Shown piece by piece: positions 1 through 45,550 of a stretch of 64,000 bases of DNA. The translations under genes and the position numbers were made by a program. How positions within the stretch are numbered: the stretch's first letter is position 1; each line of letters opens with the position of its first letter. This DNA is from Neobacillus vireti. Its GTDB lineage: Bacteria > Bacillota > Bacilli > Bacillales > Cytobacillaceae. The notes under the pieces were generated by a model that saw only the letters and a list, made by a program, of their open reading frames with translations, did no database searches and was not told the origin of the DNA. The stretch is from NCBI RefSeq assembly GCF_001026695.1, contig NZ_LDNB01000017.1:186206-250205 (forward strand), written 5' to 3'.

Positions 1-2
1 TT

Positions 3-341
3 GAAAGAAATCAGAAATACATGAGTGGTCCTCTTTCAGAAAGAATGCTAGAGCTGCTCCAAGCAAATAAAGCTTTTATTTGTGCGGGAGGAATTTCAAC
101 GGTTAATGGAATCACTGATTATGATATCAGCGGATCTAGTATCTCTCGAAAAATGATGGAACGTGCGGAAGAGGTAATCATTTTGGCGGATCATACCAAG
201 TTTGGGAAAACTACTTTTGCTAATATGTGCTCTTTAACAGATGCAACTAAGATTATCACGGATGATAGTTGCCCAAACGAATGGAAAAAAATAATAGCTG
301 AAAATGGAATCGAATTATTAATAGCAAACGAAATGAACTAG
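3..341 (+). CDS. DeoR-family transcriptional repressor, C-terminal part (5' end outside window)
   Basis: The reading frame is already open at the left edge, so this is the last ~112 codons of a longer gene; an internal ATG at 21 is not taken as the start. The segment matches the sugar-phosphate-sensing (DeoRC) domain of DeoR regulators: the CAGGIS stretch followed by GITDYD, then RAEEVIILADHTKFGK, where the D-x-[ST]-K-F pattern is typical of the end of that domain. The helix-turn-helix would lie upstream of the window. The next gene begins 65 bp downstream on the same strand with no obvious terminator, so it is probably the local regulator of the amino-alcohol/BMC operon. Effector unknown; a phosphorylated intermediate made by the kinase at 1692-2705 is a reasonable guess. 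Confidence 0.8.
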   Translation, partial: ERNQKYMSGPLSERMLELLQANKAFICAGGISTVNGITDYDISGSSISRKMMERAEEVIILADHTKFGKTTFANMCSLTDATKIITDDSCPNEWKKIIAENGIELLIANEMN

Positions 342-406
342 CAGCGAATATCAATAAATGTGAAACAAACTTATCCAAATGCTGTAAGAGAAGTGAGGAG
401 AAAAGT

Positions 407-1669
407 ATGGTTGAATTTGGCAGTAAACAAACAGTCATAGATCAATCCCTTCAATGGTGGAATCCAGGGAAAACAAGCCAGTGGCAAAAAGATGGTATTG
501 ACCTCGTTATGGGGAAACGTGAAGGGTATTACTTTTACGATATGAATGGCAAAAAATTAATGGATGTTCATTTAAATGGCGGAACCTATAATTTAGGGCA
601 TCGTAATCCTGAAATTATCGCTGCTTTGAAGGAAGCGTTAGATGATTTCGATATCGGCAATCATCATTTTCCAGCGATGACCCGTGCCAAGCTTGCTGAA
701 AAACTGTCACAATGCACACCTAATGGCCTACATTATTCTATCCTATCTGCGGGTGGAAGTGAAGCTATCGATGTTGCCTTAAAATGCGCTAGATATGCCA
801 CGAAACGGAAAAAAATCGTCTCGATCATTAATGGGTATCATGGCCATACAGGACTCGCTGTTTCATTAGGAAATGAACGGTATTCACGCTTGTTTTTGAG
901 TGAAGGGGACCCGACAGAGTTTATTCATGTTCCATTCAATGATTTAGATGCGATGGAGAGAGCATTAATGAATGAAGATGTTGCCTGTGTCATGATCGAA
1001 ACGATTCCGGCAACCTACGGATTCCCGCTTCCCGAAAGAGGATATCTTCCTTCAGTTAAAAGATTGTGTGAAAAATTTGGTACCCTATATATCGCGGATG
1101 AGGTTCAAACGGGCTTAATGCGGACAGGAAAACTTTGGGGGATTGAACACTATGGGGTGGAACCAGATATTTTAGTTACCTCTAAAGGCTTTAGCGGCGG
1201 AATTTATCCGATTGCAGCTACCGTTGTTAACAAAAAGGCGGGAAATTGGATGAATGAAGATGGATTTGCCCATATTTCCACATTTGGTGGTTCGGAATTA
1301 GGCTGTATTGTGGCTATGAAGGTGTTAGAAATCTCCCAGCGTAAGGAAATACAGCAGAACGTTGATTTTGTTGGACGTTATTTACGGACGGGACTAGAAA
1401 CAATTAAAAAGCAAAATCATGACTTTTTTGTGGGCATTCGCCAATTGGGCGTTGTAATGGGGCTGGAGTTTAGTCATCCGAAAGGTGCCATCTATGTCAT
1501 GCAGCAGCTTTTTAAAAATGGAGTTTGGGCCATTTATTCCATGCTCGATAATAAAGTCCTTCAATTTAAACCTGGTTTACTTTGTGATCAAGAATATTGT
1601 GATGAGTTACTGACAAAATGTGAACTTAGTATTACTCAAGCAGCAAAAATGGCCTATAGCTATAGTTAA
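407..1669 (+). CDS. PLP-dependent class-III aminotransferase-fold enzyme, probable amino-alcohol-phosphate phospholyase
   Basis: 420 aa, normal length for the class. Visible landmarks are GGSEAID (~116-122), GYHGHTG (143-149), the PLP-ring Asp in ADEVQTGLMRTG (~230-241) and the Schiff-base Lys260 in TSKGFSGGIYPI. A good SD (GTGAGGAGA) precedes ATG 407. The family includes true transaminases and also phospholyases that eliminate phosphate and ammonia from ethanolamine phosphate or 1-amino-2-propanol phosphate. The gene lies directly before an APH-fold kinase and within a shell-protein locus, as in the RMM-type metabolosomes, so phospholyase activity yielding an aldehyde is favoured over transamination. 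This reading rests on context; sequence alone cannot separate the two reactions. Confidence 0.78.
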   Translation: MVEFGSKQTVIDQSLQWWNPGKTSQWQKDGIDLVMGKREGYYFYDMNGKKLMDVHLNGGTYNLGHRNPEIIAALKEALDDFDIGNHHFPAMTRAKLAEKLSQCTPNGLHYSILSAGGSEAIDVALKCARYATKRKKIVSIINGYHGHTGLAVSLGNERYSRLFLSEGDPTEFIHVPFNDLDAMERALMNEDVACVMIETIPATYGFPLPERGYLPSVKRLCEKFGTLYIADEVQTGLMRTGKLWGIEHYGVEPDILVTSKGFSGGIYPIAATVVNKKAGNWMNEDGFAHISTFGGSELGCIVAMKVLEISQRKEIQQNVDFVGRYLRTGLETIKKQNHDFFVGIRQLGVVMGLEFSHPKGAIYVMQQLFKNGVWAIYSMLDNKVLQFKPGLLCDQEYCDELLTKCELSITQAAKMAYSYS

Positions 1670-1691
1670 CCATTAGAAGGGAGAAAAGAAA

Positions 1692-2705
1692 ATGAGCAAT
1701 CCCTCCGTTGACCCATTACAAGAATCCTTGAATAAATTTAATGAAATTGCAAATACCGCACTTCCTTCCTATCCATTTTTATCTCAATCTACGATTCAAC
1801 TATTAAATTACTCTGAAAATGCTACTTATCTTGTTACCGATTCGGGTAGGGGTGAAAAATATATTTTACGTGTCGGACGCCCGGGATATCATACAAAGAT
1901 GGAAGTGGAGAGCGAGCTTGAGTGGTTGAAGTCAATCCATAAGCACTCGTCTATTCATATTTCCTTGCCCATTTTAGGAGGGAACAGCGAATATATTCAA
2001 GTAGTTCAACATCAAAACGAGCAATATTACTGTACACTTTTCACATTTTTAGAAGGGGATGCGCCAAATGAAGAGAACGAAAGTGAGCTAATCAGCCAAT
2101 TTTTCAAGCTTGGCGAAATAACCGCACAATTACATGAACATAGCATCAATAATTGGGAAAGTCTTAGGAAAATCCGCAGACTCACCTGGGATTATGATAC
2201 CATTCTAGGCACTGCTCCAAAGTGGGGAAGATGGCAGGATGGATTAGCGATCACCGAGGAACGAGAGGAATTATTCACAAAGGTTTCAAAGAAAATTAGA
2301 GATAGACTGAATCGATTTGGAAAAGCCGCTAATCGTTATGGCTTAATCCATTCTGATTTACGTCTTGCTAACCTGTTGGTAGAGCGTGAACAAATTAAGG
2401 TCATCGACTTTGATGATTGTGGATTTGGCTGGTATCTCTATGATTTTGCTACTTCTCTAAGCTTTATCGAACATAAACCATATGTCCCAGCCTTAATTGC
2501 CTCTTGGTTAAAAGGGTATCGCAGGGTTCGCCCCCTTTCTGAAGAAGAAGAACAAGAGATTCCAACTTTTATTCTGATGCGAAGACTTCAGCTGATTGCT
2601 TGGGTAGGCAGCCGTGATAATGAAACAACCAGGGAGTTAGGAAACGGATTTACTGAAGACACTGACAAAATAGCAAAAAGATATCTGCAGAATGGAAAAA
2701 TATAA
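1692..2705 (+). CDS. APH/choline-kinase-fold phosphotransferase, probable amino-alcohol kinase
   Basis: 337 aa with the aminoglycoside-phosphotransferase fold. The catalytic loop HSDLRLANLL (~residues 221-230) supplies the Asp base and Asn metal ligand of the HxDxxxxN motif, and VIDFDDCGFGWYLYDFA holds the metal-binding Asp of the DFG-equivalent. The N-lobe contains YILRVGRPGY, where a Lys/Arg would contact ATP. It starts 22 bp after the aminotransferase-fold gene with SD AGAAGGGAGA, so the two are co-transcribed. In RMM-type BMC loci a kinase of this fold phosphorylates (S)-1-amino-2-propanol and the neighbouring PLP enzyme removes the phosphate. Ethanolamine or another small amino alcohol is equally possible. 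An antibiotic-resistance role is unlikely given the neighbours. Confidence 0.78.
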   Translation: MSNPSVDPLQESLNKFNEIANTALPSYPFLSQSTIQLLNYSENATYLVTDSGRGEKYILRVGRPGYHTKMEVESELEWLKSIHKHSSIHISLPILGGNSEYIQVVQHQNEQYYCTLFTFLEGDAPNEENESELISQFFKLGEITAQLHEHSINNWESLRKIRRLTWDYDTILGTAPKWGRWQDGLAITEEREELFTKVSKKIRDRLNRFGKAANRYGLIHSDLRLANLLVEREQIKVIDFDDCGFGWYLYDFATSLSFIEHKPYVPALIASWLKGYRRVRPLSEEEEQEIPTFILMRRLQLIAWVGSRDNETTRELGNGFTEDTDKIAKRYLQNGKI

Positions 2706-2745
2706 GGATGCCCATTAGATGAAGTTTTTTACAGGTGGTGAGAAA

Positions 2746-3072
2746 ATGGATGCCGATTTAGTTGAAAAGATTACGAGATTAGTACTTTCGCGGATAGAGG
2801 AACAGTCGAAACGTTCTGTTCTAAACGAATGGAGGGAACAATATTTATCAGTTGATGAAAGGGGAGAATATCCCCCACTTACGAAAGAGGAGATGAAACA
2901 ATGGAATAAAATTACCTCCACAGTGGGGTTTTCAAATAAAGCAGATGAAATATCTCCGCACGAAGTTCCGCTAACGTTGGAAGAATTGAAAACCTGGAAA
3001 GACCTTTCAGTTTCCATAAGCACGAAAGAACCGGGACAGGGTCGGGTGAAGTTTTTCCCGCATCACGAATGA
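2746..3072 (+). CDS. Small BMC-associated protein with encapsulation-helix-like N-terminus and two short repeats
   Basis: 108 aa from ATG 2746, which has SD GGTGGTGAG five bases upstream; an in-frame ATG at 2719 has no SD. I recognise no family. Residues 2-20 (DADLVEKITRLVLSRIEEQ) form an amphipathic helix with the hydrophobic spacing of the encapsulation peptides that carry cargo into microcompartments, and resemble the N-terminus of the PduL-like protein at 3604. The rest contains a repeated decapeptide, PLTKEEMKQW (44-53) and PLTLEELKTW (75-84), separated by a polar linker. No catalytic motif is seen. It lies between the kinase and the aldehyde dehydrogenase stub. A cargo adaptor or scaffold inside the shell is inferred, not shown. 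Confidence 0.6.
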   Translation: MDADLVEKITRLVLSRIEEQSKRSVLNEWREQYLSVDERGEYPPLTKEEMKQWNKITSTVGFSNKADEISPHEVPLTLEELKTWKDLSVSISTKEPGQGRVKFFPHHE

Positions 3073-3095
3073 AAGGGTGAGTTTATTAGAGAGGA

Positions 3096-3261
3096 GTGTT
3101 CCCCATTATTGAGTTCGATGATGATTTGAAATCGATCCAAGAGATGAGAGCGGCAGTCAAGCGGGCAAAAGCAGCGCAAGAAAAGTTTCAGTCGTATTCC
3201 CAGGAACAAGTTGACCGCATCGAAAAAATATGTCGCAGAAATGTATCTAATTGAAAATTAG
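3096..3261 (+). pseudogene. Remnant of CoA-acylating aldehyde dehydrogenase (N-terminal stub, frameshifted)
   Basis: From GTG 3096 the frame reads IIEFDDDLKSIQEMRAAVKR and continues AKAAQEKFQSYSQEQVDRI, which is the N-terminal capping region typical of PduP/EutE-like CoA-acylating aldehyde dehydrogenases. Near 3228 the frame breaks: the original frame ends at TGA 3252, while a one-base shift restores KYVAEMYLIEN before TAG 3259. About 400 or more codons that should follow, including the NAD-binding and catalytic Cys regions, are absent, and the SD of the next gene starts at once. This points to a frameshift plus a large internal deletion. The enzyme would have converted the aldehyde from the phospholyase to acyl-CoA for PduL, so its loss breaks the pathway unless another copy exists elsewhere. 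Confidence 0.75.
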
Positions 3262-3273
3262 GAGGAATGTTGC

Positions 3274-3558
3274 GTGGCTATTAATGGTGCACTTGGCATG
3301 ATTGAAACAAGGGGATTGGTGGCTTCTCTAGAAGCAGCGGATGCAATGGTAAAGGCAGCAAATGTCAATTTAATAGGGAAGATTCATGTCGGCGGCGGGA
3401 TTGTGACAGTGCTTGTAACCGGAGATGTGGGTGCAGTAAAAGCAGCAACAGAAGCCGGAAGTGAGGCGGCCGGGCGAGTAGGCGAGATTTTATCTGTTCA
3501 TGTCATCCCACGCCCACATAATGAACTGCAAATTATATTACCAAAATTTGAGGGATAA
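3274..3558 (+). CDS. BMC-H hexameric microcompartment shell protein (PduA/EutM type)
   Basis: 94 aa, one BMC domain (PF00936), starting at GTG with SD TAGGAGGAATG. It opens with [21 protein letters not shown], continues with AANVNLIGK and ends the fold with [19 protein letters not shown] and [10 protein letters not shown], all usual for shell hexamers. The loop that lines the central pore reads IHVGGGIVT, against KIGSG or KVGSG in common PduA/EutM proteins, so the pore may pass a different solute. It would tile facets of a polyhedral shell in the cytoplasm. It sits between the aldehyde dehydrogenase stub and pduL. The shell-protein call is firm; whether shells still assemble is unknown because no pentamer gene is in view. 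Confidence 0.95.
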
Positions 3559-3603
3559 TATCGCTAGTAAACTTATAAATGTTGAATGAGTGAGGCACAT
3601 ATG

Positions 3604-4536
3604 ATGAAAGAACTAAACTCACAACTAATTGTAAAAGAAGTAGTGAGGCGTCTACAAGAAAGGCAAAATGGAACTCCAACCATACCTATTGGCGTGTCAG
3701 CTAGGCATTGTCATTTAAAGGAAAAGGATTTAGAAATTCTTTTTGGAAAAGGGTACCGGCTTACGAAAAAGTCGGATTTATTACAGCCAGGCCAATTTGC
3801 GGCAAACGAAGTCGTGACAATCGCTGGACCACGGGGAAGCATTGAGAGGGTTAGAGTTCTCGGACCCTTAAGAAGAGTAACCCAAGTAGAAGTAAGCCAA
3901 ACAGATGCAATCAAGCTTGGATTGAATCCACCGATAAGGGAGTCAGGAAACCTACAAGGGTCTTCATGGGTTACAATCGTTGGTCCAAAAGGAAGTATTT
4001 ACCTTGAAGAGGGGTTAATCATAGCTCAAGCACATATTCATATGCCGTCAGAGCAGGCCTGCCAGCTTGATGTGAAAGATGGAGAATATGTAAAAGTGGA
4101 AATTGATCATCCGATTCGCCCGTTAAGTTTTGAAAAGGTACGGATTCGGATTTCAGATAACTATGTATTGGAAATGCATATTGATACAGATGAAGCCAAT
4201 GCCGGATTTATTAAAAGTGGACTTAAGGGTAAATTAATTAAAACAGGTAGATTCTTTAACGAAACAGGAGATGGTAAGGCAGGTCCTAACGTGAATGGAA
4301 TTTTGGGAACTACATTTGTGGCCGATTTTCATGAAAAGCTATTAACTAAAACGATTATTGATGGGTGGAAGAAAAGCATTATTACTATTAAGCCGAATAC
4401 GATTATCACGCCTTTAGCACGGGATGCGGCAAAAGAAAGAGGGATTTCGATCGTAATGAATGAAATTGGAAGGGGTGAGGCCGGTGACAAAGGCATTAGG
4501 AATGATAGAAACGCAAGGGTTGGCTACCTCGATTGA
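3604..4536 (+). CDS. pduL: PduL-like phosphotransacylase with C-terminal extension
   Basis: PduL-type enzymes exchange the CoA of an acyl-CoA for phosphate inside metabolosomes, recycling CoA. ATG 3604 is preferred (SD GTGAGG eight bases upstream); ATGs at 3601 and 3586 are in frame. After an encapsulation-like helix (LIVKEVVRRLQER) come the PTAC repeats, with the zinc-binding ARHCHL motif and AQAHIHMPSEQA in the second half. The domain ends near residue 220, and ~80 further residues include ITPLARDAAKERGI, a motif I recall near the ends of other BMC enzymes. The last ~17 codons overlap the next shell gene in another frame, so the tail may be a by-product of that overlap. Length 310 aa against ~210 for classical PduL. 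Confidence 0.88.
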   Translation: MKELNSQLIVKEVVRRLQERQNGTPTIPIGVSARHCHLKEKDLEILFGKGYRLTKKSDLLQPGQFAANEVVTIAGPRGSIERVRVLGPLRRVTQVEVSQTDAIKLGLNPPIRESGNLQGSSWVTIVGPKGSIYLEEGLIIAQAHIHMPSEQACQLDVKDGEYVKVEIDHPIRPLSFEKVRIRISDNYVLEMHIDTDEANAGFIKSGLKGKLIKTGRFFNETGDGKAGPNVNGILGTTFVADFHEKLLTKTIIDGWKKSIITIKPNTIITPLARDAAKERGISIVMNEIGRGEAGDKGIRNDRNARVGYLD

Positions 4537-4852
4537 GGCAGTAGACGTGATGTTAAAAAATTCTTATGTCCAACTTGTACAGCAATCGATGGTGGACGCT
4601 GCACTTGTGACAATTTTAATAGAAGGAGATGTAAGTGCGGTAAAAGCTGCAGTCGAAGCAGGTGTGGAACTAGCGAAAAGAAGGGGTGCCTTAGTTGCCT
4701 TTCATGTCATTCCTCATCCTGATTTGAGTACAAATCACTTAATTAGAATGAAAGCGGCGGATGGGTATGAAGCGAATAAAATGGACAATAAGCCTAATGT
4801 GAATAAAAAAGATGCAGAAAATGAAAGCAATCAAGATGAAGTGAAGGAGTAG
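4484..4852 (+). CDS. Second BMC-H shell protein, divergent pore loop and charged C-terminal tail
   Basis: 122 aa from GTG 4484, chosen because AGGGGTGAGG lies just upstream and the product then begins VTKALGMIETQGLATSIEAV as BMC-H proteins do; the ATG at 4460 adds eight residues without an SD. The fold is complete through FHVIPHPD. The pore-loop segment is QSMVDAALVT where PduA/EutM has a Gly-rich loop, and a Lys/Asp/Glu/Asn-rich tail of ~40 residues follows the domain. The gene overlaps the end of pduL by 53 bp. With two dissimilar hexamers the shell could have two kinds of facet pore. Identification as BMC-H is firm; the purpose of the tail is unknown. Confidence 0.9.
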   Translation: MTKALGMIETQGLATSIEAVDVMLKNSYVQLVQQSMVDAALVTILIEGDVSAVKAAVEAGVELAKRRGALVAFHVIPHPDLSTNHLIRMKAADGYEANKMDNKPNVNKKDAENESNQDEVKE

Positions 4853-4878
4853 TTTGCTCCCAAACTTATTTCATCTGA

Positions 4879-5070
<192 letters not shown>

Positions 5071-5218
5071 AAATTTTTAAAAATAATTGTCTTAATATTC
5101 AGAATCACTTAGAGGGGGGATAAATAGATACAATCATTGAAAATGGAAGGTTCGGTGCTGGAAAGTAATTGTGAATGTCACCCCAGTTGTTAACTTTTAA
5201 GGAGAGAAGGGAGAAAAA

Positions 5219-6820
5219 ATGTCTAAAGCTGGTCTCGCTTTGTTTGAACAAAAATCTACCGGTGGAATTGCACGGCAAATTAGTCCCATTGACACAATGA
5301 TTTACTCTGCTGCAAACCCAGGATTGATGTTTGCGCTCGTTTATATTATGTGGGCACCATTTTTATATCCAGGCGCTCATATGGTTTGGGCAATTTTGGC
5401 TGTTGCCCAGATGTTCATTATCGCAGGTCTCTATTGGTTATTATCAGTCTCGATGCCAAGGTCGGGCGGTGAATATATTTACATTAGCCGGATCCTTCAT
5501 CCGGCGATTGGACTGATGGCGAGCTTTATGATTACGTTTACTTCCATCTCGTGGACTGGAATCCTGTTAAACTGGATTATTAAATGGTCCGTAGTAGAAT
5601 TCTTCTATTCAATCGCACTTATTAATGGGAATGACTCAGGATGGCTTCATTTAGCGGAGTTTTTTAATAGTAATTACATGCATGCCATTATTGGCACAGG
5701 ATTGTTGCTGTTCATCTATTTTATCTATTATAAGGGAACAAAGTGGATGGTAAGATTAGCGTATTTAACATTGGGTGCTACCCTGGTAGGCGCTGTTGTC
5801 TTTATTATTGCTAACCTAATCACAGGGCAAGGAACCTTTGCCGCTAATTTTTCACAGCTTACAGGTTTAGCCTATAATGATGTCATTCAACTCGCAAAAG
5901 CAGATGGATATACGACTAAGTTCCTCTTCGGTGCGACTATTATGGCGGGTTCCACCTATATTATTCTCAATACACTAGGTTCCACATTTGGGGCAAATCT
6001 AGCAGGAGAAGTTCGAAACGTACAAAAATCTCAGTTGATGGCATTATTTGGCTCACTGGCGATATTAATGGTAGTTTGGGCGATTTTTTACTCGTTGTCC
6101 TATATCAACTTTGGCGATATCTGGTCCAATAGCCTGTATTATCTTTATAATTCCGGGCATGAAGCCTATCCGTTCAAGGGATATGATCCATTTATCACCA
6201 TCATGATTGGGATCATGACAAAGAGTCCCGTTTTTGTCTTTTTAATTGCGATCTGCTTTGCGGTTGCGACCTTTGGATCTGCTGCTGGTTTAGGTTTTGG
6301 ACCTTCACGTAATATGGTTGCTTGGTCGTTTGACCGTTTAATTCCTAGTAAATTTATGGAACTCAATAAAAAGACCAATTCACCTACGTACGCATTAAGA
6401 ACCGTTATCATTGGTGCCTGGTTTTTCTTAATGCTCGACATTTTCGTCCCATCTTGGACGGCAAATATCGCTTACACTATATTCACTTGGTTCTTAGCCT
6501 GGATCTTCCTGGGGATTGCTGGTATTGTTTTTTCAACCAGAAAGAAAATATTGTTTAACTCTTCACCTCCAATCGTAAAGACAAAATTCTTAGGGGTCCA
6601 TTTAGTTACCATTTTAGGCTGGCTAACCTTAGCAATCAGCGTCTCGATTTGTTACTATCTCCTAATTCCATTTTTAAGAGGAGATTTACCATTTACGATG
6701 ATTGTTGTCTCCCTGTGTTTAATGTTTATCCCAATCATCATTTATTTTGTGATGAAACGTCATCATGCTAAGAAAGGGATTGATATCGATATCCAATTCC
6801 AGGAGATTCCTTCAGATTGA
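5219..6820 (+). CDS. APC-superfamily amino acid/amine permease
   Basis: 533 aa integral membrane protein with about 12-14 hydrophobic helices. The N-terminal part carries DTMIYSAANPGLMFALVY and then SMPRSGGEYIYISRIL, the PRSGGEY motif of amino acid-polyamine-organocation (APC) permeases. A long extracellular-type loop lies between the hydrophobic blocks near residues 280-330, and the C-terminus is short and charged. ATG 5219 has SD AAGGAGAGAAGGGAG. It follows the shell genes and the mdh relic on the same strand after ~150 bp. Amino-alcohol BMC loci commonly include an APC permease, so uptake of the amine substrate is the best inference. The sequence alone does not give the substrate. Confidence 0.82.
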   Translation: MSKAGLALFEQKSTGGIARQISPIDTMIYSAANPGLMFALVYIMWAPFLYPGAHMVWAILAVAQMFIIAGLYWLLSVSMPRSGGEYIYISRILHPAIGLMASFMITFTSISWTGILLNWIIKWSVVEFFYSIALINGNDSGWLHLAEFFNSNYMHAIIGTGLLLFIYFIYYKGTKWMVRLAYLTLGATLVGAVVFIIANLITGQGTFAANFSQLTGLAYNDVIQLAKADGYTTKFLFGATIMAGSTYIILNTLGSTFGANLAGEVRNVQKSQLMALFGSLAILMVVWAIFYSLSYINFGDIWSNSLYYLYNSGHEAYPFKGYDPFITIMIGIMTKSPVFVFLIAICFAVATFGSAAGLGFGPSRNMVAWSFDRLIPSKFMELNKKTNSPTYALRTVIIGAWFFLMLDIFVPSWTANIAYTIFTWFLAWIFLGIAGIVFSTRKKILFNSSPPIVKTKFLGVHLVTILGWLTLAISVSICYYLLIPFLRGDLPFTMIVVSLCLMFIPIIIYFVMKRHHAKKGIDIDIQFQEIPSD

Positions 6821-6855
6821 TCAATTCTTCTAAAAAATAATATGGGGTGAGGAAT

Positions 6856-7788
6856 TTGAAAATTTTTTATGCAGGCGATCTGCATGGAGGAGAAACTGCG
6901 TTTCGAAAATTCACTAATGCCGGTAAGTTCTATATCGCCGATTTAGTCATATATGGCGGCGACTTTACAGGGAAAATGGTCGTCCCGATAGTTGAAAAGT
7001 CTGGCATTTATACGTGCCGATATTATGGATCTACTGTGAAAGTGAAAAAAGTAAATGAACTCCCAGATTTGGAACGGAATTTACGAGATGCAGGATTCTA
7101 TCCTTACTTAGTGTCAGAAAAAGAGCTAAATCAATTAAATGAGAGCGATGCAGAGCGGATTATTAAAGAGAAGCAAATAGAAGTGTTCAGGCAGTGGATC
7201 GAAATGGCTGATGAACGGTTTAAAGCAGCAGAAATTCCATGTATAATGATTCCTGGGAGCGTGGATGACTTTTATCTTGATGAGTTTCTCAATGCCGGAA
7301 GTTTTGTTCAAAATGGGGATGAAAAAATTATTGAGATAGATGGATTTGAAATTCTTTCAATTGGCGGTGGAAAGCCAAGTGTATTTAAGTATCCTCGTGA
7401 GTACAGTGAGGAAGAATTAGCGAAGAAAATTGAAAACGCTGCCAAACAGGTGAAGGATATGAATAAATGCATCTTTAATATTCACATCCCTCCTTACGAC
7501 ACTGATTTAGATCAAGGGACCTTGTACGATGAAGAGTTAAAGCCAGTTCTAGACGGTGATTCCCTAGCAACGGCGCCGATTGGCAGTAAAGCAGTGCGCG
7601 ATGCCATTGAAAAATATCAACCCATGCTTTCCTTACATGGTCATGTTCATGAAAGCCGTGGAGTGACCACTTTAGGCAGAACAATCTGTATTAATGCTGG
7701 TACAGATTATGACCAAGGCTTGCTTAGAGGAGCCCTGGTGGATGTTAGTGCAGATGGGAACGTGTCTTATACTTTAACAGCAGGTTAA
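6856..7788 (+). CDS. Calcineurin-like metallophosphoesterase
   Basis: About 310 aa. It has the order of metallophosphoesterase motifs: AGDLHGG at the N-terminus, GGDFTGK, PGSVDDFY in place of the usual GN(H/D)D motif, NIHIPPYD, and HGHVHESRG near the end. Replacement of the Asn of GNHD by Val is unusual and may change metal binding. TTG 6856 is preferred because GGGGTGAGG ends just before it; the GTG at 6847 lies inside that SD. It begins 35 bp after the permease gene and is probably in the same transcript. A cytosolic phosphatase acting on a small phosphorylated metabolite, perhaps to relieve phospho-amino-alcohol build-up, is inferred from position only. Confidence 0.8.
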   Translation: MKIFYAGDLHGGETAFRKFTNAGKFYIADLVIYGGDFTGKMVVPIVEKSGIYTCRYYGSTVKVKKVNELPDLERNLRDAGFYPYLVSEKELNQLNESDAERIIKEKQIEVFRQWIEMADERFKAAEIPCIMIPGSVDDFYLDEFLNAGSFVQNGDEKIIEIDGFEILSIGGGKPSVFKYPREYSEEELAKKIENAAKQVKDMNKCIFNIHIPPYDTDLDQGTLYDEELKPVLDGDSLATAPIGSKAVRDAIEKYQPMLSLHGHVHESRGVTTLGRTICINAGTDYDQGLLRGALVDVSADGNVSYTLTAG

Positions 7789-7853
7789 TGATATATTCCT
7801 ATTACTCTTTATGAAATTTTAAGATGGCTATTTCTAGATTGCTGCTTTCGTAG

Positions 7854-7915
7854 ATTCGCCGATTGAACAGCAAAAATAGCCGATAGAACCGTAAAATTCG
7901 CTGATAGACTGGCAG
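7854..7915 (+). repeat. Three tandem degenerate ~20-bp repeats
   Basis: Three imperfect copies follow each other: units at about 7854-7875, 7876-7895 and 7896-7915. The shared core is TCGCCGATAGAAC-G-AAAA (for example AGCCGATAGAACCGTAAAA and TTCGCTGATAGAC). They lie in the gap between the metallophosphoesterase and acetamidase genes and encode nothing evident. Function unknown; direct repeats of this kind can be regulator sites or neutral intergenic repeats. Confidence 0.5.
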
Positions 7916-7939
7916 TGGCTTGTAAACAATCAATAAAGT

Positions 7940-7955
7940 GGTGTAAATTTACACC
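7940..7955. promoter_or_regulatory. Perfect 16-bp palindrome, candidate operator
   Basis: GGTGTAAATTTACACC is its own reverse complement. It stands about 115 bp before the acetamidase start, at the expected distance for an operator of that gene and the peptidase behind it. I do not recognise the regulator; the box does not fit the TnrA or cre consensus. Confidence 0.5.
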
Positions 7956-8054
7956 GGTAATGGATTCTTTATAAGTTTGCCTATGATTTCTGCAAAAATG
8001 TTTACCAAAACAGCCTTAAAAATCGTTAAATTGTAAGAGGAAGGAGTCATAATG

Positions 8055-8954
8055 ATGGAAATTATTTATAAAGACCAGTGTGTACTGAATATGTCACGCA
8101 ACAATCCAGTTGTGAAAAAGGTACAGCCGGGAAGTACTGTCATTTTTGAAACGTATGATTGCTTCAGTAATCAAATTCAGCAGGAAGACCAGCCTTTTAG
8201 CTCAGTCGGCTGGGATAAAATAAATCCGGCTACGGGTCCATTATTTGTAGAAGGGGCGGAGCCGGGGGATATTTTAAAAGTGGAAATAGCAGATATTAAA
8301 ATCGAACACAAAGGTGTCATGACGACGGCTCCGAAACTTGGCGTACTTGGTGATATTGTGACCGGCGAAACGACAAAAATTATTGCCATTCAAGACGGAA
8401 AAGCGATTTTCAACGAGAAAATTCAGATTCCCATTAAACCGATGATTGGTGTAATTGGCACCGCACCTGCAGATGGGGATATTCCTACTGGAACTCCGGG
8501 TGATCATGGCGGCAATATGGACTGTAAAAAAATCATAAAAGGCTCCACCTTATATTTACCAGTCAATGTCTCCGGTGCGCTCCTGTCGATGGGCGATTTA
8601 CATGCGGTGATGGCCGACGGGGAAATTGTCATATGCGGATTAGAAATTCCGGGAGAAGTAACCATCAAAGTGGATGTTATAAAAGGAGAATCCTATCCTT
8701 TACCAATGCTTGTTAGTGAAGAGAGACTAATAATGATTGCCTCGGCAGAAACATTGGATGAAGCGGGCAAACTTGCAACGGTAAATATGCACACGTTTAT
8801 CGTCGAACAGCTTGGACTGCCAATTGACGAAGCTGCAATGCTCTTATCCTTAGTTGGTGACTTAAGAATATGTCAGGTTGTTGATCCATTAATGACAGCA
8901 CGAATGGAGCTGCCACAATGGATATTAGATCAATATAATTACAAAACAAAGTAG
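8055..8954 (+). CDS. Acetamidase/formamidase family protein
   Basis: 299 aa, the usual size of FmdA/AmdA-family amidases, which release ammonia from formamide, acetamide or similar short amides. Family landmarks are HGGNMDCKKI, TLYLPVNVSGALLSMGD with LHAVMADGE just after it, and a Pro/Gly-rich N-terminal half with EGAEPGDILKVEI. The ATG at 8055 is eight bases after AAGGAG; ATG 8052 is also possible. A gap of 260 bp with repeats and a palindrome separates it from the gene upstream, so it likely has its own promoter. With the P1 peptidase downstream it may form an amide/peptide-hydrolysis unit feeding amines into the preceding pathway. True substrate unknown. Confidence 0.85.
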   Translation: MEIIYKDQCVLNMSRNNPVVKKVQPGSTVIFETYDCFSNQIQQEDQPFSSVGWDKINPATGPLFVEGAEPGDILKVEIADIKIEHKGVMTTAPKLGVLGDIVTGETTKIIAIQDGKAIFNEKIQIPIKPMIGVIGTAPADGDIPTGTPGDHGGNMDCKKIIKGSTLYLPVNVSGALLSMGDLHAVMADGEIVICGLEIPGEVTIKVDVIKGESYPLPMLVSEERLIMIASAETLDEAGKLATVNMHTFIVEQLGLPIDEAAMLLSLVGDLRICQVVDPLMTARMELPQWILDQYNYKTK

Positions 8955-9069: not shown

Positions 9070-9138
9070 AAACAAAATCTGGAAATGAGGACTTTACTTT
9101 TTTTACATATCATCCGACTTAAAGGAAGGAAAAAGACT

Positions 9139-10239
9139 ATGAGCAAAAAGCGAGCACGAGATCTTGGATTGCCATTTCCCGGTATTCCAGGGGAATTTAA
9201 TGCATTAACAGATGTTCCAGGTGTAGAAATCGGGTTTACCACAATCATAGAAGGTGAAGGACAAGTTCAGATCGGTAAAGGTCCAATCCGAACTGGGGTG
9301 ACAGCCATTTTGCCTCGTGGTAAAAAAGAAAAAATGAAGCCGATTTGGGCAGGGTTTTACAGTCTAAATGGTAATGGTGAAATGACAGGCGTGCATTGGG
9401 TGAATGATGGCGGCTATTTTCTAAGTCCAATTTGTATAACAAATACCCATTCAGTTGGAATTGCTCACCATGCAACAACAAAATGGATGGTGAATAACTA
9501 TGAAAAACAATTCAGCACCGAACATTTATGGGCGATGCCCGTGATTGCTGAAACATATGACGGTGTTCTTAACGACATTAACGGGCAGCATATTACTGAA
9601 GAGCATGTTCTCTCAGCAATTGATGGGGCTCATCCAGGACCAGTATCCGAAGGGAATGTTGGCGGAGGGACGGGGATGATCTGTTACGAATTTAAAGGGG
9701 GAACGGGAACATCTTCACGTGTTGTCACGATTAATGGGCAACAACATCATATCGGTGTTCTTGTTCAAGCAAACTTTGGTTTACGTGAATGGCTTACCAT
9801 TATAGGTGTCCCTGTCGGAAAACATATGAGTAATGGAAAGCTTTTAGAAAATGAACAAGGTTCAATCATTGTCATTATAGGGACAGATATTCCAATGCTA
9901 CCCCATCAACTAAAAAGGGTTGCTAAGCGTGCCGCAATTGGTATTGGCAGGAGCGGGAGCCCTGGGGGAAATAGTTCAGGTGATATTTTTCTTGCCTTTT
10001 CAACTGCCAATGAAATGGATATTCTCCAATTATCACAAGAAAAATTGACGATGGAATTTGTCAATGATGAAGGATTTGACCCAATTTATGAAGCTGTTTG
10101 CCAAGCAGTGGATGAATCAGTCGTTAATGCTTTGATTGCCGCGGAATCAATGACTACCGTTAAACCATATGGGAAAATAGTCCACGCAATCAATCATGAA
10201 GAACTTTTGCGAGTAATGAGAGAATATAATCGGGTTTAA
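9139..10239 (+). CDS. P1-family (DmpA-type) aminopeptidase, self-processing Ntn hydrolase
   Basis: 366 aa from ATG 9139, which has SD AAAGGAAGGA; a TTG-type extension to 9085 is unsupported. The N-terminus shows LTDVPGVEIGFTT and the middle GNVGGGTGMICYEFKGGTG, both typical of L-aminopeptidase/D-esterase proteins. The processing site GGNSSGDIFLAFS sits at ~276-288; by family analogy the chain is cut before the second Ser (~S280), which becomes the N-terminal nucleophile of the beta chain. The residue before it is Ser where DmpA has Gly. Members act on N-terminal D/L or beta-amino acids. It follows the acetamidase on the same strand across a hairpin repeat. Confidence 0.87.
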   Translation: MSKKRARDLGLPFPGIPGEFNALTDVPGVEIGFTTIIEGEGQVQIGKGPIRTGVTAILPRGKKEKMKPIWAGFYSLNGNGEMTGVHWVNDGGYFLSPICITNTHSVGIAHHATTKWMVNNYEKQFSTEHLWAMPVIAETYDGVLNDINGQHITEEHVLSAIDGAHPGPVSEGNVGGGTGMICYEFKGGTGTSSRVVTINGQQHHIGVLVQANFGLREWLTIIGVPVGKHMSNGKLLENEQGSIIVIIGTDIPMLPHQLKRVAKRAAIGIGRSGSPGGNSSGDIFLAFSTANEMDILQLSQEKLTMEFVNDEGFDPIYEAVCQAVDESVVNALIAAESMTTVKPYGKIVHAINHEELLRVMREYNRV

Positions 10240-13381: not shown

Positions 13382-14455
13382 ATGCGCCTAAACACTGAAC
13401 TATGCGAAATACTAGGTATTACCTATCCGATAATTCAAGCTGGAATGGCTGGAGGCCCAACAACCGTGGATTTGGTTGCCAATGTTTCTAATGCAGGTGG
13501 GTTAGGAACCTTAGGCGCAGCCTATATGAAACCAGATGAGATAAGAACAGCGATTCGACAAATAAAGGTGAGGACTACAAAGCCATTTGCCGTGAACTTA
13601 TTTTGTACCAATTGGCAAGATCACTATGAAGGAGTAGAAGAGTCTCAGAAGGTACTGAATCCAATTCGAGAAAAGTTAGGTTTGAAGTATTTGGATCAGC
13701 AGGTGATGACAAACAACTTTTTTGATAAACAATTTGAAGTCCTATTGGAAGAAAAAGTAACTGTACTGTCTACCGCTTTCGGTGTTCTTCCCCCGGATAA
13801 AATGGCGGCAGCCAAGAAACAGGGAGTAACAGTTACGACGATGATAACGACTGTTCGAGAAGCCCAACTGGCAGAAAATGAGGGCGCAGATATCATCATC
13901 GCCCAAGGTAGTGACGCTGGCGGTCATAGAGGAACATTTGAAATAGAAAAAGATACTCATGGTGCCGCGATCGGAACCTTTTCCCTTGTCCCCCAGGTAG
14001 TGGATGCTGTTTCGGTACCAGTGGTGGCTGCAGGTGGAATCATGGATAGCCGCGGCATTGTTGCAGCATTGGCATTAGGGGCACAAGCAGTTCAAATGGG
14101 AACGGCATTCTTAACTACTATAGAGTCTGGTGCTCATCCAGTATATAAACAAGCACTAATCAAAAGTACAGAAGAAAGTACAGTTATTACCAAAGTCTTT
14201 TCAGGACGTCCGGCTAGAGGAATTAAAAATGCTTTTATAGAAGCCTACCAAGATGCAAAAATACCACCAGCCGATTTCCCAACCCAAAACACGTTGACCA
14301 GTGACATTCGAAGGGCAGCAGCTTTTCACAATAATCCCGACTATATGTCGCTGTGGGCTGGGCAGGCTACAAGACTATTACTAAACGAAATAACTGCTGA
14401 GAACTTAATAAGAAAGTTAGTAGCAGGTGCAGATCGAATACTTTTTAGTAAATAA
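13382..14455 (+). CDS. Nitronate monooxygenase (2-nitropropane dioxygenase family)
   Basis: 357 aa FMN-dependent TIM-barrel enzyme. It opens with LGITYPIIQAGMAGG, has the catalytic-His motif IIAQGSDAGGHRGTF, and binds the FMN phosphate with PVVAAGGIMDSRGI and ALGAQAVQMGTAFL. These are shared with nitronate monooxygenases that oxidise propionate-3-nitronate and similar toxins, and with the FabK enoyl-ACP reductases. No FabK-type acyl synthesis genes are nearby, which favours NMO. ATG 13382 is preceded by GAAAGGAAG; TTG 13376 adds two residues. It is monocistronic, ending at a hairpin shared with the convergent gene at 14523. Confidence 0.88.
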   Translation: MRLNTELCEILGITYPIIQAGMAGGPTTVDLVANVSNAGGLGTLGAAYMKPDEIRTAIRQIKVRTTKPFAVNLFCTNWQDHYEGVEESQKVLNPIREKLGLKYLDQQVMTNNFFDKQFEVLLEEKVTVLSTAFGVLPPDKMAAAKKQGVTVTTMITTVREAQLAENEGADIIIAQGSDAGGHRGTFEIEKDTHGAAIGTFSLVPQVVDAVSVPVVAAGGIMDSRGIVAALALGAQAVQMGTAFLTTIESGAHPVYKQALIKSTEESTVITKVFSGRPARGIKNAFIEAYQDAKIPPADFPTQNTLTSDIRRAAAFHNNPDYMSLWAGQATRLLLNEITAENLIRKLVAGADRILFSK

Positions 14456-14464
14456 ATTACTTAA

Positions 14465-14516
14465 GGGTTCATTCCCCCGATGCAATAAAGCATTACAGCG
14501 CCGGGGGAATAACCCA
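14465..14516. terminator. Bidirectional hairpin between convergent genes (palindrome family)
   Basis: Nested arms: GGGTT/AACCC outside and ATTCCCCCG (14471-14479) with CGGGGGAAT (14502-14510) inside; the loop contains GATGCAATAAAGCATTACAGC. It stands between the stop codons of the nitronate monooxygenase and the leftward RMD1-like gene. The loop resembles those of the repeats at 42439 and 46616. Confidence 0.7.
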
Positions 14517-14522
14517 TTTTTA

Positions 14523-15344
14523 CTAGTATTTTATTATCGTCAGAATGATCTCGAAGAGGATGAGAAAGACGATAATCCATTCCACGAAGAGTCCACGGAT
14601 GGAATGACTAATGGTGGAAAAACCATTCATGATGTTATATAAAATATCTGTTTTATTTTTCAAAATAATATATCTATCATTTAATTCGAAAAACTCGACC
14701 ATCTTGTCGTAAAATTCGTTTGCTGTGCTGCTTGTCCATGTTATATCAGGTTTATCTAAAATCATGATATACGCAAGCGTGTTGTATTCGTGGCGGACGA
14801 TTTTCGCGGTCGTCCTCGCCAGTTCTTTATTGCCGATTCTCAGCCTGCCTTTTTCCAGCCGGTCAATCATCATTTCGAGTTTGTCATGGATATTTCCGAG
14901 CTGCTCCTCTGTTTTCTCAAGTGCCACCGATTTGGCAAGGACCGTGGAAATCAATTCAGGAAAATAAACCTCATATTCTGGAACTACAATATATTCGTCC
15001 GTCAATTCAATATTTTCGGTTTCTTTGATATGAAGACTATAATCGTCCGTATATCTATTAGCATTCTTGATTTCAATATCCGGTTCATAGGAATGGAGGT
15101 ATTTCAAAAAGCAGGTTATCTCATTTGAGTCCGAATGATTAATGAAGACAACGCTGCCAAAGGAAAAAACCATCACCATTTGTGAGTCGTCCAGCTTTTT
15201 TTGCACGATGGTTTGGAGAATTTCGCCTTTTAGAATTAAAGGCTGTTCCCAAGTGAACTTTTTAGGAATGCCGCATTGAATGGCAATTTGGTTTAAATCA
15301 ATTTCATTCGTAATCGCAAATGCCTTAAAGTGGATAGGCGTCAT
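14523..15344 (-). CDS. RMD1/YagE (DUF155) family protein
   Basis: About 273 aa. The N-terminal half has VVFINHSDSNEI after a FSFGSV strand and the middle carries LAKSVALEKTEEQLG with ARTTAKIVRHEYN, as in the RMD1/RMND1/YagE family. A single C-terminal membrane helix (FVEWIIVFLILFEIILTII) would tether it to the membrane, as in yeast and human homologues of mitochondrial translation. Bacterial function is not established. ATG 15344 is chosen; a GTG at 15353 is in frame and lies within GGAAAGAGTG. It is a single gene, convergent with the nitronate monooxygenase. Confidence 0.8.
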   Translation of the reverse strand: MTPIHFKAFAITNEIDLNQIAIQCGIPKKFTWEQPLILKGEILQTIVQKKLDDSQMVMVFSFGSVVFINHSDSNEITCFLKYLHSYEPDIEIKNANRYTDDYSLHIKETENIELTDEYIVVPEYEVYFPELISTVLAKSVALEKTEEQLGNIHDKLEMMIDRLEKGRLRIGNKELARTTAKIVRHEYNTLAYIMILDKPDITWTSSTANEFYDKMVEFFELNDRYIILKNKTDILYNIMNGFSTISHSIRGLFVEWIIVFLILFEIILTIIKY

Positions 15345-42891: not shown

Positions 42892-42952
42892 ACTCTAAAG
42901 AATATTTAATTTAGAATGTTTTACTAATTTTTGACCAAATGGAGTGATTGCA

Positions 42953-45550
42953 ATGGCAGAGAAAGCAATGGCTGAAAAGCAAAGTGTACCTACGATGATT
43001 GACTGCATGGTGGTGAATGCTCTTCAAGCTTTGGAAGAGTTCCGCACCTTTGACCAAAAAATGATTGACGAGATAGTTAAGCAAATGGCTCTCGCTGGTC
43101 TTGATCAGCATATGCCCCTGGCAAAACTGGCTGTTGAGGAAACGAAAAGAGGCGTCTATGAAGATAAAATCATTAAAAACATGTTTGCCACTGAATATGT
43201 CTATCATAATATTAAATATGATAAAACGGTCGGCATCATTAACGAAAATGAGCATGAAGGGATCATCGAAATCGCTGAACCAGTTGGCGTGATAGCTGGG
43301 GTAACACCTGTTACTAACCCGACTTCGACAACGATGTTTAAAGCACTGATTTCAATAAAAACGAGAAATCCTATCGTTTTCGCATTTCATCCTTCTGCAC
43401 AAAAATGCAGCAGTGAAGCAGCGCGAGTCTTGAGGGACGCCGCAATCAAAGCTGGAGCGCCTGCGAACTGTATTCAGTGGATTGAAACGCCATCTCTTGA
43501 GGCAACGCAAGCTTTAATGAACCATTCGAATGTATCGATGATTCTTGCAACAGGCGGTGCTGGGATGGTTAAATCGGCATACAGCTCTGGAAAACCGGCC
43601 CTCGGAGTAGGCCCTGGTAACGTTCCTTGTTATATTGAAAAAACGGCCCATCTCTACCAAGCTGTCAATGACTTAATTTTATCAAAAACATTTGATAATG
43701 GCATGATATGTGCGTCCGAGCAAGCCGTTATCATTGATAAAGAAATTTACGACGCGGTTAGAAAAGAGATGATTGCAAATAGTTGTTATTTCTTAAATGA
43801 TGAAGAAAAGGAGAAAGTCGAAAAATTAGTCATTAATGAACATTCATGTGCGGTAAATCCCGATATTGTCGGAATGGCTGCCGCAAAAATTGCGGCTATG
43901 GCAGGAGTAATGGTCCCTGATGAGACAAAAATTCTTGTCGCTGAATTAAACGGCGTCGGACCAGGATACCCGTTATCAAGAGAAAAATTGAGTCCGGTGT
44001 TAGCATGCTATACGGTTAGCAGTTTAGAAGAGGGATTAACGAGAGCGGAAGAAATGTTGGAATTTGGCGGTCTAGGGCATTCAGCCGTGATTCACTCCAC
44101 GGATCAACCCGCTATCAAGCAGTTTGGTTTACGGATGAAAGCAGGGCGGATTATTGTGAATGCACCTTCCTCACAAGGAGCGATCGGCGATATATATAAT
44201 GCCTTTATGCCTTCCTTGACACTTGGCTGCGGCACGTATGGAGGAAACTCTGTTTCTACAAACGTTGGCGCCATTCATTTGATTAATATTAAAAAAGTGG
44301 CCAAAAGGAATGTCAATATGCAATGGTTTAAAGTGCCATCCAAAATATATTTTGAGAAAAATTCCACTCAGTATTTAGCTAAAATGCCGAAGATCTCTAA
44401 AGCATTCATTGTAACCGACCCAGGAATGGTTAGATTAGGCTATGTTGATCGGGTGCTTTATTATTTAAGAAAGCGTCCGGATTACGTCCATTGCGAAATT
44501 TTTTCAGAGGTGGAACCAGATCCATCCATCGATACGGTTATGAAAGGCGCAGAAATGATGGCAAGATTCCAGCCGGATGTCATCATTGCCCTGGGCGGTG
44601 GTTCTGCAATGGATGCGGCAAAAGGAATGTGGCTGTTCTATGAACATCCAGATGCCGAATTCTTTGGACTGAAACAAAAATTCCTAGATATTAGAAAACG
44701 AATTGTGAAATATCCGCGTTTAGGAGAGAGAGCACAGTTCGTGGCGATTCCGACGACCTCTGGCACAGGATCGGAAGTAACATCATTCTCTGTTATCACC
44801 GATAAGGAAGCAAATATGAAATATCCGCTCGCTGATTATGAATTGACACCAGATGTAGCGATAATTGATCCACAGTTTGTGATGACGGTGCCAAAACATA
44901 TAACTGCTGATACAGGAATGGACGTTTTAACCCATGCCATCGAAGCTTATGTGTCCTGTATGGCCAATGATTATACAGATGGCCTCGCCATGAAAGCAAT
45001 CCAGCTTATATTTGAGTATTTGCCAAGAGCCTATAAAAATGGAAGTGACGAATTAGCCCGCGAAAAAGTGCATAATGCATCAACAATTGCCGGTATGGCC
45101 TTTGCCAACGCATTCCTTGGCATCAACCATAGTCTTGCACATAAACTTGGGGCAGAATTCCATATTGCGCACGGACGGGCCAATACAATTTTGCTGCCAC
45201 ATGTGATTCGCTATAATGCAGCAAAACCAAGGAAGTATACAGCATTTCCTAAATATGACCATTTCATTGCTGACAAGCGCTATGCGGAAATTGCGAGAAT
45301 ACTTGGTCTTCCGGCTAGGACAACGGGAGAAGGAGTCGAAAGTCTTGTTCAAGCTATTATTAAGTTAGCAGGAGAGCTTGAAATTCCGATGAGCCTTGAG
45401 GCAAATCATGTCGAAAAATCTCTTTTCGAAAGCAAGATCGACTATCTCGCTGAAAAGGCATTTGAAGACCAATGTACAACCGCCAATCCTAAGCTTCCAT
45501 TGGTTGCGGAATTAGCTGATATTTATCGGCAAGCATATAAAGGGGTTTAA
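42953..45550 (+). CDS. adhE: Bifunctional acetaldehyde-CoA/alcohol dehydrogenase
   Basis: 865 aa from ATG 42953 with GGAGTG upstream. The N-terminal half is the CoA-acylating aldehyde dehydrogenase: GVIAGVTPVTNPTSTTMFKA, and the catalytic Cys253 in FDNGMICASEQAVI. The C-terminal half is an iron-dependent alcohol dehydrogenase, with ALGGGSAMDAAKGMW (NAD binding) and the metal His in NHSLAHKLGAEFHIAHGRAN. It turns acetyl-CoA to ethanol using two NADH, and forms spirosomes. The Rex box directly upstream and the terminator downstream make it a single regulated unit. Its aldehyde dehydrogenase domain could in principle replace the lost BMC enzyme, though outside any shell. Confidence 0.97.
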   Translation: MAEKAMAEKQSVPTMIDCMVVNALQALEEFRTFDQKMIDEIVKQMALAGLDQHMPLAKLAVEETKRGVYEDKIIKNMFATEYVYHNIKYDKTVGIINENEHEGIIEIAEPVGVIAGVTPVTNPTSTTMFKALISIKTRNPIVFAFHPSAQKCSSEAARVLRDAAIKAGAPANCIQWIETPSLEATQALMNHSNVSMILATGGAGMVKSAYSSGKPALGVGPGNVPCYIEKTAHLYQAVNDLILSKTFDNGMICASEQAVIIDKEIYDAVRKEMIANSCYFLNDEEKEKVEKLVINEHSCAVNPDIVGMAAAKIAAMAGVMVPDETKILVAELNGVGPGYPLSREKLSPVLACYTVSSLEEGLTRAEEMLEFGGLGHSAVIHSTDQPAIKQFGLRMKAGRIIVNAPSSQGAIGDIYNAFMPSLTLGCGTYGGNSVSTNVGAIHLINIKKVAKRNVNMQWFKVPSKIYFEKNSTQYLAKMPKISKAFIVTDPGMVRLGYVDRVLYYLRKRPDYVHCEIFSEVEPDPSIDTVMKGAEMMARFQPDVIIALGGGSAMDAAKGMWLFYEHPDAEFFGLKQKFLDIRKRIVKYPRLGERAQFVAIPTTSGTGSEVTSFSVITDKEANMKYPLADYELTPDVAIIDPQFVMTVPKHITADTGMDVLTHAIEAYVSCMANDYTDGLAMKAIQLIFEYLPRAYKNGSDELAREKVHNASTIAGMAFANAFLGINHSLAHKLGAEFHIAHGRANTILLPHVIRYNAAKPRKYTAFPKYDHFIADKRYAEIARILGLPARTTGEGVESLVQAIIKLAGELEIPMSLEANHVEKSLFESKIDYLAEKAFEDQCTTANPKLPLVAELADIYRQAYKGV

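Follow-up and report, generated by a model that had tools for sequence, protein, structure and literature searches.

How can a bacterial microcompartment (BMC) locus continue to serve a metabolosome once its own CoA-acylating aldehyde dehydrogenase (ALDH) is gone? This question is raised by a locus at the start of a 64,000-nucleotide stretch of the 5.3 Mb Neobacillus vireti genome, hereafter the window, which comprises positions 186,206–250,205 of its contig (C9; labelled G000:C9). A first-pass annotation had described the locus as an RMM-type amino-alcohol pathway with an ALDH reduced to a frameshifted stub and no gene for a pentameric shell protein (BMC-P), and had offered three explanations, namely decay, a second ALDH elsewhere, or a shell that houses a shorter reaction. 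The second fits best, as an SPU-type ALDH and three BMC-P genes are encoded on the same contig, while nothing was found in support of the third. We propose, with confidence a little short of even, that the locus was once a complete RMM/AUT-like metabolosome for amino alcohols and is shrinking to a satellite that borrows the core of another compartment, that of the SPU-type locus.

Results

Pfam matches placed all of the genes named by the first-pass annotation where it had put them, on the forward strand. These were a class III aminotransferase-fold enzyme (407–1669; Aminotran_3), a probable amino-alcohol-phosphate phospholyase judging by its context and hereafter called the lyase; an APH-fold kinase, probably acting on an amino alcohol (1692–2705; APH); two hexameric shell proteins (BMC-H), H1 (3274–3558; BMC, E = 1.2e-27) and H2 (4460–4852; BMC, E = 6.7e-25); the phosphotransacylase PduL (3586–4536; PTAC); and an APC-family permease, a probable amino-alcohol importer by inference (5219–6820; AA_permease_2). 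The locus opens with the C-terminal part of a DeoR-family regulator (1–341; gene start upstream, at L004 9550–10341), and reading the sequence immediately upstream of position 1, as had been suggested, revealed a short-chain dehydrogenase/reductase (SDR) gene and the start of this regulator. The open frame of a small protein (2746–3072, frame open from 2719), absent from the earlier annotation and called here the tagged protein, lies between the kinase and the ALDH remnant.

The ALDH stub was a genuine remnant (3090–3247) of the N-terminal 46–52 codons, with a frameshift and the rest deleted. Positions 3090–3227 matched residues 2–47 of the intact ALDH of Bacillus sp. V3-13 (L031) with 76% identity (E = 1e-15); the frame shifts after 3227, where the next frame reads YVAEMY compared to HVAETAY in Neobacillus sp. 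Marseille-Q6967 (L030), and similarity to the gene end and following spacer returns at ~3243, so that ~1.39 kb is gone relative to L031. No BMC-P remnant was found in window positions 1–8000 with the L031 protein as query, in agreement with the reported lack of this gene. Two further lesions had gone unreported. The PduL frame reads on into the C-terminal part of a PduM-like gene, the two being separate genes in L030 and L031, although the PduM family match at residues 245–289 was weak (31 bits vs. a curated cut-off of 50; E = 1.9e-7). A malate/lactate dehydrogenase is reduced to its last 63 codons with an in-frame stop (4879–5067), aligning to residues 262–324 of the L031 protein with 81% identity (E = 5e-28); this gene is whole in L027, L028 and L031, and the intact L031 copy matched malate dehydrogenase models. 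An assembly or strain artefact, with an intact ALDH in the living strain, appears very improbable: a single assembly of the species was compared, but the lesions are mostly large deletions rather than single-base errors, and the sister genome (G039) also lacks the ALDH here, with different end points.

Structural relatives supported an RMM-type amino-alcohol chemistry, as far as can be judged from sequence. The best solved relative of the kinase was 6ef6 (E = 1.6e-69) and those of the upstream SDR were 6ci9 and 6ci8 (E ~7e-94). PDB files name these proteins generically; we take them to be the RMM aminopropanol enzymes of Mycobacterium smegmatis. Compared to the PDB, the pyridoxal phosphate (PLP) enzyme had no match at E = 1e-60 and 32 sequences at E = 1e-35 or better, none of which was named a phospholyase; its name therefore stays inferred from context.

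The remainder of the genome carries both of the missing parts, ALDH and BMC-P. In total the genome has six PF00936 BMC domains and three BMC-P genes, each of them on the window's contig. An SPU-type locus (L005) lies at ~280.8–288.2 kb, ~87 kb downstream, and encodes, in order, a regulator, PduL, a 250 aa protein, BMC-P, ALDH, BMC-H, a triose phosphate isomerase with an N-terminal extension, RpiB, BMC-P, BMC-H, BMC-P and a DeoC-type aldolase. The pfam01791 aldolase and pfam02502 RpiB that characterize SPU loci with shell genes were both found (DeoC, 49.6 bits, cut-off 23.8; LacAB_rpiB, 171 bits, cut-off 24.7). A EUT module at ~21–27 kb encodes two BMC proteins, which read as EutL- and EutS-like, together with EutP, EutA, EutB, EutC and a permease; genome scans found neither a BMC-P nor an ALDH match beside it, and no EutD or PduL was present among frames of at least 100 codons in the 19.5 kb read. 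The remaining two ALDH matches of the genome at E = 1e-40 were of AdhE size, one on contig C12 and one in the window at about 42935–45547, with aldehyde and iron alcohol dehydrogenase domains. As a side observation, ~120 residues with a repeated NCRxEYPNCR-like stretch precede the EutC domain in the frame at L137 13397–14452 (~25.9–27.0 kb), as if a minisatellite had entered the gene start.

Related loci were collected by a lyase-based scan (best 80 of 102) together with matches within the genus; BMC-H counts in relatives are those among the matches listed. Complete loci were found in several Bacillaceae and Paenibacillaceae, and the combination is therefore less foreign to Bacillaceae than the first-pass annotation had supposed. 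In Bacillus sp. V3-13, B. canaveralius (L039) and Virgibacillus oceani (L045) the order was SDR, regulator, lyase, kinase, tagged protein, ALDH, BMC-H, PduL, PduM-like, BMC-P, BMC-H, malate dehydrogenase, permease and phosphoesterase, and intact ALDH genes such as that of L031 answered the earlier suggestion that relatives be searched for one. The nearest named relatives by lyase, Bacillus sp. FJAT-29814 and Neobacillus species, had reduced loci. PduM-like and BMC-P genes were missing from N. citreus (L027, G002) and N. rhizophilus (L028, G027), BMC-P and malate dehydrogenase from Neobacillus sp. Marseille-Q6967, and PduL, PduM-like, BMC-P and malate dehydrogenase from Bacillus sp. FJAT-29814 (L029). 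The L030 ALDH and BMC-H genes are separated by repeat-rich sequence with several open frames (14297–14719). Between the kinase and permease of the sister genome G039 only the tagged protein and H1 remain, with no ALDH remnant found in the spacer of ~56 bases between them, and N. massiliamazoniensis (G013; L032, the same place as L138) has kept the tagged protein alone, with no shell gene in the locus and shell genes elsewhere in the genome.

In a lyase tree of 35 rows, the window and G039 were sisters (support 100/95) within a clade of six (98/97). None of the six carries BMC-P in the locus, which the adjacent pair L031/L039 does; the loss of BMC-P is thus old, because it is common to the whole supported clade. 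Four of the six nevertheless hold an intact ALDH, and about five or six ALDH losses are distributed across the tree. Outside the clade, the lyase, the kinase, the tagged protein and two BMC-H are found in Compostibacillus humi (L038), B. piscicola (L049) has these together with a permease and a frame that reads as HAD-like, and Lysinibacillus antri (L042) lacks ALDH and BMC-P. Three lineages (G039, C. humi and B. piscicola) share a reduced set in which the lyase, kinase and tagged protein are accompanied by one or two BMC-H; no remnant of the missing genes was found in their reduced loci. L047, L048 and L050 each combine the lyase with EutS, EutA, EutB and EutL around a common core and shell, and amino-alcohol lyase and Eut chemistries can therefore share a locus.

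We examined whether loss tracks the presence of another metabolosome in 27 genomes (the window's included) with Bacilli-lineage loci that had BMC genes or the tagged protein. Outside this set stood six loci with no shell gene seen (L040, L051, L052, L053, L104 and L174), the other-phylum loci (L054–L087, L089–L102, L105 and L106), and G012, G014 and G015, which had a kinase of 62–64% identity and no lyase or BMC match in the 20 kb read. The tables were hand-coded and the Fisher tests ignore kinship; an ALDH elsewhere was counted when a frame shorter than ~620 codons matched the SPU ALDH at E = 1e-40, and in G054, G074 and G076, where the ALDH sits behind Eut genes, it was generously scored as in the locus. 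BMC-P was present elsewhere in 10 of 10 genomes whose locus lacked it vs. 9 of 17 whose locus had it (p = 0.012), and another ALDH of non-AdhE size in 6 of 6 whose locus lacked ALDH vs. 11 of 21 whose locus had it (p = 0.057). In all eight genomes with neither BMC-P nor ALDH elsewhere, both were present in the locus. N. citreus and N. rhizophilus were reciprocal, in that this locus has ALDH and PduL without BMC-P and the EUT locus has BMC-P; no ALDH or PduL match was found within 20 kb of their EUT loci, and their other ALDH matches were of AdhE size.

Compared to G039, the SDR, regulator, lyase, kinase and permease have intact frames with omega (dN/dS) values of 0.02–0.10, and H1 has an omega of 0.028 at a dS of 0.87. 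These values bear on plain decay, in which an inactivated metabolosome is on its way out and the open genes have merely not been hit so far. Decay is what befell several genes, as the first-pass annotation had considered; for the locus as a whole we regard it as a serious, though less likely, alternative. Several lesions, among them a frameshifted gene and a stop-bearing one, have accumulated in one locus, the sister G039 has lost still more, the malate dehydrogenase remnant carries nine window-only residues (stop included) compared to 2–6 in five intact relatives, and the tagged protein evolves fast, with an omega of 0.49 against G039. On the other hand, constraint on the five open genes, the antiquity of the BMC-P loss in a clade with four intact ALDH genes, and the recurrence of similar reduced sets in separate lineages weigh against simple decay.

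Several observations weigh against the proposed reduction to a borrowing satellite. The ALDH remnant carries five window-only amino acids, within the 2–7 found by the same count in six intact relatives (lowest in the close pair L031/L039), and has an omega of 0.13 against L030; because of this low divergence, the deletion is judged recent and was probably separate from the loss in G039, which also favours decay. H1 conservation may therefore predate the loss, and fresh breakage would look alike. An argument that ALDH was lost before the window and G039 split, so that H1 conservation proved use after the loss, was dropped because of this low divergence. The associations with another metabolosome weakened when G013 was excluded (p = 0.023 for BMC-P and 0.12 for ALDH) and when eight near relatives were dropped (p = 0.11 and 0.10). 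Mixed Pdu and Eut components are harmful in Salmonella, where regulation prevents such mixing. Finally, the window's AdhE could take the aldehyde without a shell.

This last point, together with the second AdhE-size frame on C12, favours use without a shell, in which a cytosolic kinase and lyase would pass the aldehyde to AdhE or another dehydrogenase and the shell genes would be leftovers. Lyase and kinase loci also occur in G016, G077, G078 and G081, genomes without BMC-H among the matches listed. However, the loci of those four genomes (L174, L052, L053 and L104) lack the tagged protein, which the window, G039 and G013 keep, and H1 is as conserved as the enzymes, with the reservation about its timing given above. 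We consider such use unlikely.

An alignment of 18 orthologues of the tagged protein showed a start of approximately MDxxLVEKITRLVLxKLEE, resembling an encapsulation peptide, two or three PLTxEExxxW-like motifs, linkers that vary in length and, in most, a C-terminal VKF-like motif; the window copy has two PLTxEExxxW motifs and the VKF motif. AlphaFold predicted helices at residues 3–33, 47–60 and 78–92 with no fixed arrangement (mean pLDDT 73.5, pTM 0.25). There was no NCBIfam match for the protein and no Pfam match for the window copy; a sub-threshold Vasculin match of the L030 protein was taken as chance. When a profile of the 18-sequence alignment was run over all frames of at least 50 codons in 87 loci, the protein was found in 27 of 27 BMC-linked Bacilli-lineage loci (18 of which built the profile and nine of which did not), in none of the six shell-less Bacilli-type lyase and kinase loci (L040, L051, L052, L053, L104 and L174), and in none of the other-phylum loci, which include actinobacterial and proteobacterial RMM-like loci with BMC genes. 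Within the window's family, at least 12 of 193 genomes had it at E = 1e-6, nine of which have BMC genes; not every first-look candidate was scored in each genome. Among the genomes with the protein, G090, G091 and G093 corresponded to G067, G061 and G065 in contig number and position. G013 retains the protein despite a shell-less locus, in a copy without the VKF end.

In a crude comparison of encapsulation peptides with shuffles (11 sequences, uncorrected), the N-terminus of the tagged protein scored above shuffles with the SPU DERA (0.6% of shuffles reached the score) and SPU PduL (1.8%), and not above them with the window PduL (12%), SPU ALDH (19%), the SPU 250 aa protein (24%), triose phosphate isomerase (32%) or RpiB (66%). 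The kinase and lyase had no tag-like start in this comparison. The tagged protein may serve as an adaptor, delivering the untagged kinase and lyase to the shell; this role is a guess, but one consistent with these observations.

Flanking the core genes, a calcineurin-like metallophosphoesterase (6847–7788; Pfam) follows the permease, as it does in several related loci. Further 3', an acetamidase/formamidase-family gene (8052–8954) and a peptidase family S58 gene (9085–10239) follow the locus, with their order conserved in G039. Another APH-like kinase gene (24% identity to the window kinase; L004 3957–4970) precedes the locus regulator by ~4.6 kb. A search of six loci for Rfam regulators yielded nothing but a PyrR site in L030.

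Discussion

The ancestor of the locus would have had SDR, regulator, phospholyase, kinase, tagged protein, ALDH, BMC-H, PduL, PduM-like, BMC-P, BMC-H, malate dehydrogenase and permease genes. We suggest that the substrate-specific parts (import, kinase, lyase, tagged protein and BMC-H) are retained and that the generic parts (ALDH, BMC-P and a dehydrogenase) are shed, with ALDH and BMC-P supplied by the SPU-type locus. The permease would bring in an amino alcohol, putatively ethanolamine or 1-amino-2-propanol, the kinase would convert it to its O-phosphate, and the PLP enzyme would remove phosphate and ammonia to give the aldehyde. Given joint expression of the two loci, the SPU-locus ALDH would then form the acyl-CoA and PduL the acyl-phosphate, with the reactions housed in shells of SPU BMC-P and BMC-H plus H1 and H2, to which the tagged protein may bring the kinase and lyase. 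In favour of a mixed shell, BMC-H proteins from distinct BMC types have been reported to be cross-compatible and able to associate in Klebsiella (PMC12058022).

The window locus resembles the RMM/AUT loci (Axen et al. 2014, PMC4207490; PMC6620236) in the phosphotransferase, class III aminotransferase, SDR, amino acid permease and BMC-H, and the kinase and SDR homologues, class III aminotransferase and permease that identify such loci are all present here. In contrast to the GntR regulator of the published RMM/AUT descriptions (PMC4207490, PMC6620236), the Bacilli form has a DeoR-type regulator, and it adds PduL, a PduM-like gene, malate dehydrogenase and the tagged protein; the window copy lacks ALDH and BMC-P. 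The AUT pathway is predicted with an aminotransferase, not a phospholyase (PMC6620236).

Both satellite and RMM loci were defined by Axen et al. 2014 (PMC4207490). By their definitions, the window locus has a mere remnant of the core AldDH that a metabolosome locus carries, and its two BMC-H genes without BMC-P correspond to a satellite with PF00936 only or PF03319 only; as PduL lies between H1 and H2, the shell genes are not contiguous, and the locus is satellite-like in their terms. Under the description of Sutter et al. 2021 (PMC8217296), in which satellites lie distal from a main locus and encode shell proteins with or without enzymes, the ~87 kb between the loci places it among satellites. 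Similar to the satellites and EUT modules of that study (PMC8217296), it has signature enzymes and a shell protein, no full core, and an SPU-type main locus in the genome, which here encodes a DeoC-type aldolase, RpiB, ALDH, PduL, BMC-H and BMC-P. The EUT modules were there described as satellites of SPU3, SPU6 and HO loci and read as a functional extension, and the words aminotransferase and phosphotransferase are absent from the main text (PMC8217296). Unlike EUT-module satellites, the window locus combines kinase and lyase with BMC-H instead of EutABC with EutL, and intermediates of its reduction are visible in relatives. Among the papers listed by our literature searches, none dealt with a BMC of Neobacillus or with a satellite for amino alcohols. 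Satellite loci are already known, and an amino-alcohol one looks new.

A broader and more doubtful version of the borrowing satellite is one shared compartment with several inputs, in which DNA sugar (SPU), ethanolamine (EUT module) and phosphorylated amino alcohol (window locus) would feed one shell and one ALDH, with the tagged protein as a dedicated adaptor into the shells of another locus.

If the reduction to a borrowing satellite is correct, BMC loci are not self-contained, and a genome with two metabolosomes can discard the generic core from one of them, retaining a plug-in module. Neobacillus and its relatives would provide a gradation from the complete locus down to a small module, in which the sharing of shell and ALDH between metabolosomes, so far argued from co-occurrence, becomes testable by single gene deletions. 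The tagged protein would then be a small natural cargo adaptor, useful for shell engineering.

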